Origin: Micromonospora sp. HM5-17 | GTDB taxonomy: Bacteria > Actinomycetota > Actinomycetes > Mycobacteriales > Micromonosporaceae | Direction of reading: 5' to 3' | NCBI RefSeq assembly: GCF_003762835.1 | Contig: NZ_RJWA01000005.1 | Span: 1-64,000 of the forward strand | DNA: 64,000 bases | Shown here: one piece after another, positions 8,593 through 35,116 of the stretch | How positions within the stretch are numbered: the stretch's first letter is position 1 | Layout of the letters: each line of letters starts with the position of its first letter | Notes under the pieces: generated by a model | The model's input: only the letters and a program-made list of their open reading frames with translations | The model's database searches: none | Told to the model about the DNA's origin: nothing | Program-made: the position numbers and the translations under genes

Positions 8593-8665
8593 GGACCGTT
8601 GGAGTAGTGGAGAACTCGCCAGGCTCTCAACCTGGAGACCGCCGGTTCGATTCCGGCACGGTCTG
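8593..8665 (+). tRNA. tRNA with anticodon CTC (predicted tRNA-Glu)
   Basis: Cloverleaf of 73 nt. The acceptor is GGACCGT paired with ACGGTCT (first pair G-T). The D stem is GAG/CTC with a 10-nt loop. The anticodon stem CCAGG/CCTGG carries loop CTCTCAA, giving anticodon CTC. The variable region has 5 nt, and the T stem is GCCGG/CCGGC around TTCGATT. The discriminator is G, and CCA is not encoded. The anticodon reads GAG (Glu), and the G discriminator fits Glu. The D arm and acceptor differ from the usual actinobacterial tRNA-Glu as I remember it, so this may be an accessory isoacceptor. Confidence 0.85.
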
Positions 8666-8775
8666 CGCACCGATTACAGTTGTCACCGGACAACGACGCG
8701 GCGGTGGTTCGGTAGGGCGACCTGCCCCCGGACCGCCGGAGCCCCCGGCCTCCTCAGCCGCGCGCGGTCCCGCCC

Positions 8776-8848
8776 GCTCCGGTAGCCCAATGGCAGAGGC
8801 AGCGCGCTCAAACCGCGCCCAGTGTGCGTTCGAATCGCACCCGGAGCA
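8776..8848 (+). tRNA. Class I tRNA with anticodon CAA (reads UUG; isotype uncertain)
   Basis: Complete cloverleaf of 73 nt. Acceptor GCTCCGG/CCGGAGC (7 perfect pairs), D stem GCC/GGC, anticodon stem GCGCG/CGCGC with loop CTCAAAC (anticodon CAA), a 5-nt variable region, T stem GTGCG/CGCAC around TTCGAAT, and discriminator A followed by an encoded CCA. The anticodon is that of tRNA-Leu(UUG), but leucine tRNAs normally carry a long variable arm of more than 10 nt, which is absent. The decoding box is therefore clear while the amino acid it carries is not. A second short CAA tRNA lies at about 51,964. Confidence 0.85.
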
Positions 8849-8900
8849 CCAGGTGCCCGAAGCCGCACCGCGGCCCGGCGAGTCCCGCCCACCGGACCAT

Positions 8901-8972
8901 TCCCGGATCGTCCAACTGGCAGGACGCCTGATTCTGGTTCAGGAAACCGAGGTTCGAATCCTCGTCCGGGAG
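8901..8972 (+). tRNA. tRNA-Gln (anticodon CTG)
   Basis: Cloverleaf of 72 nt. The acceptor TCCCGGA/TCCGGGA has the T1-A72 pair typical of bacterial tRNA-Gln. D stem GTCC/GGAC, anticodon stem CCTGA/TCAGG with loop TTCTGGT (anticodon CTG), a 4-nt variable region, T stem CGAGG/CCTCG around TTCGAAT, discriminator G, and no encoded CCA. The anticodon loop matches ordinary tRNA-Gln, so the isotype is secure. It is the third tRNA of the cluster. Confidence 0.88.
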
Positions 8973-31503: not shown

Positions 31504-33615
31504 CTACGCGACCCCGGCCGCGTCCATCCCGCGCAGTTCCTTCTTGAGTTCGGCGATCTCGTCCCGGATCCGGGCGGCCAGCTCGAACTGGAGTTCGCGG
31601 GCCGCGGCGAGCATCTGCTCGTTCAGCTCCTGGATGAGCTGCGCCAGGTCGGCCCGGGCCATGCCCTCGCGGGACGGCCCCGCCCCGCCCCGGCCCCGGC
31701 TGCGGGTCTCCGGCACCGGTGCCTTGCCTCGGGACAGCTGCCGCGCCGCGCCGCCGACCTGGGTGGTCACCCCCTCGGTGTCCTCCGCCTCGCGGTAGAT
31801 GTCGTCGAGGATGTCGTGGATCTTCTTGCGGAGCGGCTCCGGGTTGATGCCGTGCGCCTTGTTGTGGGCGATCTGCTTGGCCCGCCGCCGGTTGGTTTCC
31901 TCGATCGCCTCCGCCATCGACGGGGTTATCGTGTCGGCGTACATGTGGACCTGTCCGGAGACGTTGCGGGCGGCCCGGCCGATGGTCTGGATCAGGGAGC
32001 GGCCGCTGCGCAGGAAGCCCTCCTTGTCGGCGTCGAGAATCGCCACCAGGGAGACCTCGGGCAGGTCCAGCCCCTCTCGTAGCAGGTTGATCCCGACCAG
32101 GACGTCGTAGTCGCCCTTGCGCAGCTCGCGCAGCAGCTCGACCCGGCGCAGGGTGTCGACCTCGGAGTGCAGGTAGCGGACCCTGATGCCGTGCTCCAGC
32201 AGGTAGTCGGAGAGGTCCTCGGCCATCTTCTTGGTCAGTGTGGTGACCAGGACCCGCTCGTCCCGCTCGGTACGCAGCGTGATCTCGTGCATCAGGTCGT
32301 CGATCTGCCCCTTGGTGGGCTTCACGATCACCTCGGGGTCGACCAGGCCGGTCGGCCGGATCACCTGCTCGACCACCTCGCCCTGGGCCTGCTCCAGCTC
32401 CCAGGGGCCGGGCGTGGCGGAGAGGTAGACCATCTGGCCGACCCGCTCCAGGAACTCGTCGAACCGCAGCGGACGGTTGTCGGCCGCGCTGGGCAGCCGG
32501 AAGCCGTGCTCGATCAGTATCCGCTTCCGCGAGGCGTCGCCCTCGTACATCCCGCCGATCTGCGGGATCGTCACGTGCGACTCGTCGATGACGGTCAGGA
32601 AGTCGTCGGGGAAGTAGTCCAGCAGGCAGTGCGGCGGGCTGCCGTACGTCCGGCCGTCGATGTGCATGGAGTAGTTCTCGATGCCGGAGCAGAAGCCGAC
32701 CTGGCGCATCATCTCGATGTCGTACGTCGTCCGCATCCGCAGCCGCTGCGCCTCCAGCAGCTTGCCCTGGCGTTCCAGCTCGGCGAGGCGCTCGGCCAGC
32801 TCGGCCTCGATGCCGGCGATCGCCCGCTCCATCCGCTCGGGTCCGGCGGCGTAGTGCGTGGCCGGGAAGATCAGGAGGTGGTCGACCTCCCGGATCACGT
32901 CCCCGGTCAACGGGTTCAGGTAGTAGAGCTTCTCCACCTCGTCGCCGAAGAACTCGATGCGGAGCGCCAGCTCCTCGTAGGCCGGGATGATCTCCAGCGT
33001 GTCGCCCCTGACCCGGAACGTGCCGCGGTTGAAGGCCATGTCGTTGCGGGTGTACTGGATGTCGACCAGCCGGCGGAGCAGCGTGTCGCGCTCGATCTCC
33101 TCGCCGACGCTGATCCGGACCGCCCGGTCGAGGTACTCGTCCGGGGTGCCCAGGCCGTAGATGGCCGAGACGGTGGCCACGACCACGACGTCCCGGCGGG
33201 TCAGCAGCGACATCGTCGCGGAGTGCCGCAGCCGCTCGACCTCCTCGTTGATCGAGGAGTCCTTCTCGATGTAGGTGTCGGTCTGCGGAATGTACGCCTC
33301 GGGCTGGTAGTAGTCGTAGTAGGAGACGAAGTACTCCACCGCGTTGTGCGGCAGCAGCTCACGGAACTCCTTGGCGAGCTGGGCGGCGAGGGTCTTGTTC
33401 GGGGCCAGTACCAGGGTTGGCCGCTGGAGCCGCTCGATCAGCCACGCGGTCGTGGCGCTCTTGCCGGTGCCGGTGGCGCCGAGTAGTACCGAGTGCCGCT
33501 CGCCGCGCCGGATCCGCCGCTCCAACTCGGCGATGGCCGTGGGCTGGTCGCCGGAGGGCTGGAACTCGCTGACCACCTGGAAGCGGCCGTCACGTCGGGG
33601 AATGTCGAGCGCCAT
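31504..33615 (-). CDS. uvrB: Excinuclease ABC subunit B
   Basis: Damage-verifying helicase of nucleotide excision repair, loaded by UvrA and partnered with UvrC. The 703-residue sequence has the P-loop GATGTGKS (about 46), DESH, the beta-hairpin region near residue 95 ([15 protein letters not shown]), QTIGRAARN (motif VI) and a C-terminal UVR motif ([21 protein letters not shown]). The start is ATG. It lies 31-34 kb from uvrA and uvrC, as is usual for actinobacteria. Its 298-bp upstream region holds a plus-strand candidate ncRNA. Confidence 0.97.
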
Positions 33616-33743
33616 GACCTCAACCGTACGCCGCCGGTCCGACAGGACACAGCACGGTGCCGGGCCGCCGTGGCAACCGTGGGTACACGATCGGTTTCGA
33701 TATGGTCATTGTGTGTATAAGGTGACCGCGCTACGGTTTTAGG

Positions 33744-33872
33744 GTAGGCCGCTCGCGGCGGCCGACCGGGTCCGCGACCGGCCGCCACACCAGCCGTCGC
33801 ACCCGGGATCGAGGTTGCAGCCCTGGCGCGAGCCGGCGAGCGCACCGACGGCCGCCGCGAGCGGCCCTTTTT
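33744..33872 (+). ncRNA. Candidate structured small RNA between uvrB and coaE
   Basis: About 129 nt on plus. TTGTGT at 33709 and TACGGT at 33732 (17-bp spacing) are a good promoter, about 7 nt before a GG start. The RNA is closed by a perfect 18-bp helix (33747-33764 with 33849-33866), ending in C and TTTTT. Inside I can fold two arms: one from 33766 to 33806 (6 + 5 + 3 bp) and one from 33813 to 33846 (3 + 2 bp, then a stem with a GCGA loop), giving a three-way junction. No family is recognised (not tmRNA, SRP, RNase P or 6C RNA). It may simply be a terminator with a large loop. Confidence 0.6.
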
Positions 33873-33913
33873 CGTCCGTGGTCATCCCGTCCGTTCCCGA
33901 CCCCGTCGGCCGC

Positions 33914-35095
33914 CTAGGGGCGCCAGCCGGTGGCCGCCGCCCACGCCTCGGCCCGCTCGTGTTCCCGGTCGAACCACGGCTCCTTGCCCGCGGCGTACGC
34001 GTCGACGTCGGGGCTGGTCGCGACCAGCCTCTGCTTGAGCCGGAGGTACGCGGACCGCTGCTCGGGGTCGGCCCGCAGGTGGTCGCGCATCAGCAGGGCG
34101 TACCGCCAGCCCGGCGAGCCGACGACCCGGACGTGCAGGTTCACCGGCCGTCCCGGGTCCGCGCTGCCGTGCAGCCGCTTCTCCCAGCGGTCGGCATCGG
34201 TCGGGAACCGTGGGTTGTCCCACCACTGTCCCGGATACCGGGGAAAGCCCGCCTCGGCGAGCCGGTCCGCGACCGCGTCGGCCTCCGCCATCGACCCAAC
34301 CCCCACCTGGATGTCGATGACGTCCCTGGCCGGCAGGCCCGGTACCGCGGTCGAGCCGACGTGGTCCACCCGGATCTCGGCCGGGCGGAGCGCGTGCCGG
34401 ATCCGGGCGGCGAGCCGGGTGAACTGGGCCGGCCAGTCGGGATCGGGCGCGACGAGCCGAGCCTCGGTGAGTCGGACCGGCAGCCGCTCGCGCACGTTCC
34501 GCTCGTACGGGAGTAGCCGTTCCCGCCACAGGGTGTCGACGGCGGCGTGCAGCGTGGCGAGGTCGGCGTCGTTGTCCAGCAGGACATCGGCGGCGGCCTC
34601 CCGGCGCGCGTCCCCGGCCTGGGCCCGGATCCGCTGCTCGGCCTGGGTGGCCGTCATGCCCCGGTCCCGTACGAGTCGTCCGATCCGGGTCTGCTCCGCC
34701 GCCCGCACCACGACGACCAAGTGGTACGTCGGCGCCAGCCCCACCTCGACCAGCAGCGGTACGTCGTTGACGACGATCGCGTCCGGTGCCGCCTCTGCGG
34801 CGAGTTGGGCGGTTCGGGCCCGGACCCGGGGGTGGATGATCTGCTCCAGGCGGGCCCGGGCCGCGGGATCGCCAAACACGATCTCGCCCAGTGCCGGCCG
34901 GTCGAGGCTCCCGTCGGGCCGGCAGACCCGGGTGCCGAAGGCGGCGACGACCTCGCGGAGACCCTCGGTGCCCGGCTCGACCACCTCCCGGGCAAGCCGG
35001 TCGGCATCGATCACGACGGCGCCGTGGTGGGCCAACCGGGCCGCGGCGACACTCTTGCCCGACCCGATGCCGCCGGTCAGTCCGATCATCAGCAC
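33914..35095 (-). CDS. coaE: Dephospho-CoA kinase fused to a UPF0157 (GrpB) domain
   Basis: Last enzyme of coenzyme A synthesis, phosphorylating dephospho-CoA. N-terminal kinase (1-200): P-loop GLTGGIGSGKS, DADRLAREVVEPGT, and IIHPRVRAR in the CoA-binding region. Residues about 215-393 form a UPF0157/GrpB nucleotidyltransferase-like domain (VRLTEARLVAPDPDWPAQF; VGSTAVPGLPARDVIDIQVGV). This fusion is known in actinobacterial CoaE. The start used is GTG (MLMIGLTGG); a TTG 12 nt upstream and an ATG 6 nt downstream are alternatives. It is downstream of rpsA, separated by a hairpin. Confidence 0.92.
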   Translation of the reverse strand: MLMIGLTGGIGSGKSVAAARLAHHGAVVIDADRLAREVVEPGTEGLREVVAAFGTRVCRPDGSLDRPALGEIVFGDPAARARLEQIIHPRVRARTAQLAAEAAPDAIVVNDVPLLVEVGLAPTYHLVVVVRAAEQTRIGRLVRDRGMTATQAEQRIRAQAGDARREAAADVLLDNDADLATLHAAVDTLWRERLLPYERNVRERLPVRLTEARLVAPDPDWPAQFTRLAARIRHALRPAEIRVDHVGSTAVPGLPARDVIDIQVGVGSMAEADAVADRLAEAGFPRYPGQWWDNPRFPTDADRWEKRLHGSADPGRPVNLHVRVVGSPGWRYALLMRDHLRADPEQRSAYLRLKQRLVATSPDVDAYAAGKEPWFDREHERAEAWAAATGWRP

Positions 35096-35116
35096 TGCTG
35101 TAGTCAACCAAACGGC

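Follow-up and report, generated by a model that had tools for sequence, protein, structure and literature searches.

A candidate family of structured small RNA encoded beside uvrB in Micromonosporaceae

Background

Three bacterial RNAs that bind RNA polymerase (RNAP), 6S, Ms1 and CoRP, may be the nearest functional analogues of the element described here. The 6S RNA (RF00013), which binds the RNAP holoenzyme, is a rod with a central bubble that mimics open promoter DNA. Its length is about 160-200 nt according to excerpts of PMC11077062, which also give about 300 nt for Ms1 (scr3559/MTS2823), the small RNA that binds the RNAP core, and 516 nt, with a place between tRNA genes, for the RNAP-binding CoRP RNA of Corynebacterium. 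Excerpts of PMC9130861 report synteny of Ms1 with a HAD hydrolase gene, and Table 4 of that paper predicts Ms1 in 21 genera of Micromonosporaceae, with Micromonospora and Plantactinospora both missing from the table; the term uvrB is absent from its main text.

Here we describe an element that lies between uvrB and coaE in a 64,000-nt stretch of DNA from Micromonospora sp. HM5-17 (hereafter, the window) and that we call a new family of structured bacterial small RNA. With 6S RNA it shares a free-standing, highly self-paired form with paired ends and a comparable length (126-189 nt here), but it consists of an outer helix, P1, and branched arms in the consensus of both strands, with no rod and no Rfam match. 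Ms1 and the element are both structured small RNAs of actinobacteria; Ms1, however, has a HAD hydrolase neighbor and about 300 nt, whereas the element stands beside uvrB in 76 of 76 aligned copies and measures about 150 nt. Like CoRP, it is limited to one actinobacterial clade and to one conserved place, but that place is beside uvrB rather than between tRNA genes, and the 516 nt of CoRP contrast with about 150 nt. Membership in these groups fails where it was tested.

Searched against Rfam 15, the whole window yields only 4 tRNAs above the gathering cut-off, none of them at the element; three tRNA genes are clustered at 8593-8972 (+). Within 33600-33930, at E up to 5, the best scores are those of isrD and isrK, far below the cut-off: the likeness consists of a GC hairpin and a T run, and the scores of 14.8 and 12.9 bits, against gathering values of 37 and 50, correspond to E about 2, that is, chance level. 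No matches were found in 20 relatives at E up to 1, and 6 diverged loci at E up to 3 gave one match below the cut-off, outside the element. The 6S covariance model is not among the Rfam matches of the window, the 20 relatives or the 6 diverged loci. The earlier note on this DNA, made from the sequence alone, recognized no known family, and this holds for Rfam 15 at gathering and relaxed thresholds alike. Among the matches listed from the open-access PMC literature, titles and abstract openings contain no description of the element, which may still be mentioned in a transcriptome table. The term uvrB does not occur in a study of 26 bacterial genomes (PMC8632094), nor the term SCO1966 in a Streptomyces RNA study (PMC3765725).

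Structure and promoter of the element

The full span of the covariance models is 33745..33870 on the + strand (R1, built from 14 copies, E 2.6e-10; R2, E 1.9e-11), which makes the window copy 126 nt long, compared to about 150 nt in relatives and a range of 126-189 nt. In the RNAfold prediction for 33744-33880, P1 is formed by 18 perfect pairs between a 5' strand at 33747..33764 (GGCCGCTCGCGGCGGCCG) and a 3' strand at 33849..33866, and encloses two arms. Arm P2 (33766..33806) carries the loop CCACAC, and arm P3 (33813..33846), the proposed core, is capped by a GCGA (GNRA) loop and contains the conserved bulges GGTTGCAGCC / GGCGAGCGCACC. The predicted energy is -85.3 kcal/mol (z -4.8 against 200 dinucleotide shuffles; z -5.7 against shuffles for the plus strand of 33744-33872). 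Behind P1 lies a T5 tract (33868..33872), and together the two read as an intrinsic terminator in the window copy: a terminator scan reported a single site, on the + strand and within P1 (33850-33866 plus the T tract), with 0.3 expected in shuffles. The perfect 18-bp end helix followed by a T tract that the earlier note had described is thus present in the window copy, in both the sequence and the fold.

The RNA would start at TAGGCC (33745; start region TAGGCCGCTCGCGGCGGCCG), 7 nt after a putative -10 hexamer, TACGGT (33732..33737), which is preceded at a spacing of 17 by a putative -35 hexamer, TTGTGT (33709..33714). This promoter pair, already pointed out in the earlier note, is kept in relatives. 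When the hexamers of the 76 aligned copies are picked as the best match within a short range, TTGTGT is the best -35 match in 61/76 and TACCGT occupies the -10 position in 49/76; the spacing is 17 in 63/76 and the distance from -10 to the RNA start is 7 nt in 55/76. A sigma-70 consensus scan of the window reported 0 sites here; the scanner requires 9 of the 12 letters of the consensus, which is that of E. coli, and the two hexamers have 6 of 12 by our own count. We credit the putative promoter despite this result because it is conserved in relatives. The stretch 5' of the -35 hexamer (33689..33703; GATCGGTTTCGATAT in the window) has the majority consensus GATCGGCTTCGATAT, with letters at 50% or more but below 80%, and is perhaps an UP element or an activator site.

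Distribution in the family

A DNA search of 61 related genomes matched 43 at E up to 0.001, with many weak GC-rich matches, and uvrB was present in 27 of the 30 loci fetched. The first 17 letters of the P1 5' strand occur exactly in 92/121 genomes of the family, once in most of them. A 19-mer scan of named genomes found at least 119 stretches; the best 80 of 119 comprise 79 from Micromonosporaceae and 1 from Thiococcus, and the genera among the matches listed include Micromonospora, Actinoplanes, Paractinoplanes, Dactylosporangium, Phytohabitans, Plantactinospora, Hamadaea, Asanoa and others. The covariance search of relatives proposed in the earlier note gave, with R1, one full-length match in each of 98/121 genomes of a Micromonosporaceae sample. 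Under strict filters, 12/121 genomes of an order-wide sample and 2/148 of a class-wide sample matched, all of them Micromonosporaceae; very diverged relatives beyond the family could escape because of these filters. In the samples searched, the RNA is restricted to one family, Micromonosporaceae. A free-standing P3 motif was tried as a search pattern (GCAGCNCC-N8-24-GGYGAGCGC) and rejected as uninformative, since it matches 252/296 genomes of the class.

Among the 23 family genomes with no R1 match, the region upstream of uvrB was inspected in 20, and diverged homologues were read in 7 of these (L112-L118). Unfiltered model scores over 39 kb are clear for L118, L114, L113 and L117 (E 2e-6 to 4e-4), whereas L116 (E 0.013), L115 (0.067) and L112 (0.0058, for P3 only) were called homologous by eye. 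A whole-genome search with R2 matched 4 of the 7 diverged genomes at uvrB (E 3.5e-4 to 0.07) and gave no match in the other 3; of the 13 other, RNA-less genomes, 3 had short or weak matches elsewhere (E 0.01-0.5). Weak scores of this kind do not discriminate: L122, a genome from another family of the order, reaches E 0.0088 on a plain terminator hairpin. L122 has a promoter-like TTGTCT...TAGCGT pair, a GCAGG...CCTGC helix and a terminator-like hairpin divergent from uvrB, and this is perhaps an unrelated small RNA, given that the best model score falls on the hairpin. A wider model was rejected because, in the alignment that adds diverged copies, 7 of the 42 rows are opposite-strand matches of copies already included.

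Covariation and typical form

The alignment to R1 contains 76 copies from 76 genomes of the 98 with a match, the other 22 being outside the alignment. Of its 3859 pair cells, 95.4% hold standard pairs, and 37 of the 52 pairs show changes on both sides, with P2, P3 and P4, an arm discussed below, covarying as well as P1. Doubly changed cells number 195, against a shuffle mean of 41, with 0 of 500 shuffles as high, and sliding the partners by 1-3 columns lowers pairing from 95.4% to 31-42%; these figures come from an alignment that was fitted to the structure, the shuffles take no account of relatedness, and the slid control is biased in the same direction. Additional weight therefore comes from the diverged genera, in which a rebuilt P1 still pairs, with different letters in L113 and L117 and partly different letters in L114 and L118; each of these four has a further hairpin behind P1.

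Within P1, 97.7% of the cells pair and 9 of the 17 model pairs have changed on both sides, so that the lack of compensatory changes in the 18-bp helix, which the earlier note had named as evidence against its proposal, is not what the relatives show. The same note's view of a structured small RNA, something beyond a simple terminator, gains from covariation in P1 and in the inner arms. The element is a conserved RNA structure, present in single copy at a conserved place. A coding gene was considered and judged unlikely, mainly from the covariation. The lengths of 126-189 nt span all three modulo-3 classes and any ATG occurs in only 36/76 copies; two of the three + strand frames lack stop codons in 42 and 53 of the 76, as GC-rich DNA allows.

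The window copy differs from the typical form. In 73/76 copies a segment of at least 17 nt forms a third arm, P4, so that the typical form is a four-way junction; the usual pattern of P4 is GGUC-GCGC-loop-GCGC-A-GACC, with varied end loops. In the window, by alignment, about 27 nt are missing at an approximate site at 33847..33848. A full-length match and an aligned row with P4 exist for all six further genomes of the genus, and the arm is apparently missing from L112, L115 and L117 as well, according to single-sequence folds. The loss in the window copy suggests that P4 is dispensable or that this copy is decaying. Opposite C5 of P1, 54/76 copies have C, that is, a C-C mismatch, and 14, including the window, have G. 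A TTTT near the 3' end occurs in 5/76, and T5 in 2/76, namely in the window and in a second copy from its genus. By these counts the window copy is atypical in its three-way junction, its perfect helix and its T tract. The earlier note's two arms, three-way junction and GNRA loop accordingly describe the window correctly and the family as a whole incorrectly.

The P3 core GC[AT]GC is found in 74/76 copies and is still readable in diverged homologues. The P2 loop CCACAC is found in 52/76, its five unpaired letters being conserved at 82-87%, and is absent from 5/5 rows of genus g4, all of which have the P3 core. Mean letter conservation is higher in P1 (0.90) than in P3 (0.77), and the P1 5' strand is near-invariant over many genera, beyond what pairing needs. 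Taken alone, this strand (33747-33764) folds as a hairpin of -13.7 kcal/mol, a possible co-transcriptional alternative. As for a switch of this kind, P1 in L113, L114 and L116 has been rebuilt from strands that are, by eye, not self-complementary.

Neighboring genes

The divergent neighbor, uvrB (31504..33615, - strand; Pfam UvrB domains), is divergent in all 76 copies. The estimated uvrB start lies 102-240 nt from the RNA 5' end in 73/76 and 446 nt from it in L057; in L062 and L087, uvrB is about 2.3 kb from the RNA, which is still kept. On the other side, convergent with the RNA, the window has a coaE fused to GrpB (33914..35107, - strand; Pfam CoaE 7-183, GrpB 217-381). In several relatives the tblastn match to this protein is confined to roughly residues 1-200, which suggests a patchy occurrence of the fusion in the family.

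In 40/76 copies the gene behind the RNA, on the same strand, is one that we denote gene X, which encodes about 460 aa with no Pfam match and, by eye, a likely N-terminal membrane segment; its estimated start is within about 0.5 kb in 39. Gene X was not found behind the RNA in the other 36/76, some of whose loci cover only about 1.5 kb of that side, nor in the loci of the window's genus. The RNA is thus tied to no constant downstream gene, and its promoter-like sequence is conserved while the downstream gene varies. In 13 of 13 inspected RNA-less genomes of the family, X is divergent from uvrB at a distance of about 5-143 nt. The most economical account is an origin of the RNA between uvrB and X, or else its loss from the RNA-less lineages.

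The place beside uvrB had led the earlier note to speculate about a uvrB-linked or DNA-damage role. Excerpts of PMC5656591 give tTGTCRgtg-8-TannnT as a RecA-independent damage-response motif, and excerpts of PMC6789036 attribute a role in the damage response to PafBC. A PafBC-like motif occurs at the promoter of uvrB itself, in 37/76 copies by a strict pattern and in 73/76 by a loose one, some of whose matches may be due to chance; it was not found in the promoter consensus of the RNA from the 76 copies. The place is indeed conserved, but the motif sits on the uvrB side, and the damage idea thereby loses its chief argument and is weakened, not disproved. The window's uvrB has an apparently leaderless promoter of PafBC type (CTGTCGGACCGGCGGCGTACGGT, 33623-33645, - strand), whose -10 ends 7 nt before the ATG at 33615.

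Alternative explanations

The C-rich P2 loop, [U/G]CCACACC, could belong to a trans-acting antisense RNA that pairs with ribosome-binding sites (GGUGUGG/GGAGG-like) and blocks translation, which we consider unlikely. The frequency of CCACAC, the conservation of the unpaired loop letters and the many copies that read CCUCCACACC, resembling an anti-Shine-Dalgarno sequence, argue for such pairing, but the motif is dropped in every g4 row while the P3 core is kept, and most of the remaining RNA is paired. We therefore favor P3, and disfavor loop pairing, as the essential part. Regulation in cis, with the element as a leader, attenuator or insulator of gene X or uvrB, is improbable. The constant place beside uvrB and the 40 copies with X behind the RNA on the same strand, in 39 of them with a nearby estimated start, are consistent with it, but X is not found there in nearly half of the copies, coaE, where found, faces the other way, uvrB points away from the RNA, carries its own promoter motif and is remote in two genomes, and the RNA-less genomes keep the divergent arrangement of X and uvrB all the same. 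That coaE or X merely has a terminator or a DNA inverted repeat here, or that the structure arose by chance, has next to no probability: P1 with T5 does score as a terminator in the window and GC-rich DNA folds readily, but compensatory changes run throughout P1-P4, diverged lineages rebuilt P1 with a separate hairpin behind it, promoter-like sequence precedes the 5' arm, T tracts are mostly absent, and the matches of the covariance model in 98/121 genomes together with the covariation contradict this view.

The opposite strand deserves closer comparison, since both strands fold and covary equally well. A minus-strand RNA would form a structured leader on transcripts that enter uvrB by read-through from coaE, and in the window it would be a 6S-like rod: the minus strand is predicted to fold at -94.2 kcal/mol (z -6.0), against -85.3 for the plus strand. 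The consensus folds are at -154.8 (plus) and -157.1 (minus), each with 38 pairs changed on both sides, and no more than 28/76 copies fold better as the plus strand. The minus consensus, however, is branched; the rod is a property of the window's minus strand alone. Wobble cells favor the plus strand, with 133 G-U against 57 A-C in the fixed plus structure, a count that is itself favored because alignment A4 was fitted to that structure, and with 145 (plus) against 98 (minus) when each strand is given its own consensus fold. The + strand promoter is conserved with fixed spacing and start, and the + strand gene X begins near the required start site of a minus transcript in 39/76. The choice of strand thus depends on the promoter and on the excess of G-U cells, to which the position of X is added; we prefer the + strand and regard a minus-strand RNA as having little probability.

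Conclusions

The explanation toward which we lean, tentatively and at somewhat less than even confidence, is a stand-alone structured noncoding RNA of the core Micromonosporaceae that binds a protein and serves as a regulator or scaffold broadly like 6S or Ms1, rather than controlling uvrB or pairing as an antisense RNA. Its transcription, strand, termination, protein binding and the identity of its partner are parts of this explanation that we infer. RNA polymerase would start at about 33744 from the RNA's own putative promoter of housekeeping type and would stop at the long P1 helix and T tract in the window copy, or at the separate hairpin in some diverged relatives. P1 would clamp both ends and hold two or three arms. 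Of these, P3 preserves its single-nucleotide bulges, survives even where divergence is greatest and is the probable docking site of a protein. Protein binding to P3 does not account for the near-invariance of the P1 5' strand.

Strongly structured RNAs that many genera keep in one copy often act with a partner of housekeeping or global regulatory function. A bolder extension, which we hold to be unlikely, is that this clade-specific RNA was born between uvrB and X in an ancestor shared by the core family and binds a core machine (RNA polymerase, the ribosome or an RNA chaperone) as a global regulator, a further RNA of the RNAP type. What the analysis provides is an RNA structure family with good support and no Rfam 15 match, present once per genome in 98/121 sampled genomes of a family with many antibiotic producers. 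It also detaches this RNA from the damage response of uvrB, to which the location had pointed. The alignment, the model and the promoter make this RNA directly testable. If the extended reading is true, the antibiotic-producing Micromonosporaceae would have an RNAP-type RNA besides 6S, Ms1 and CoRP.
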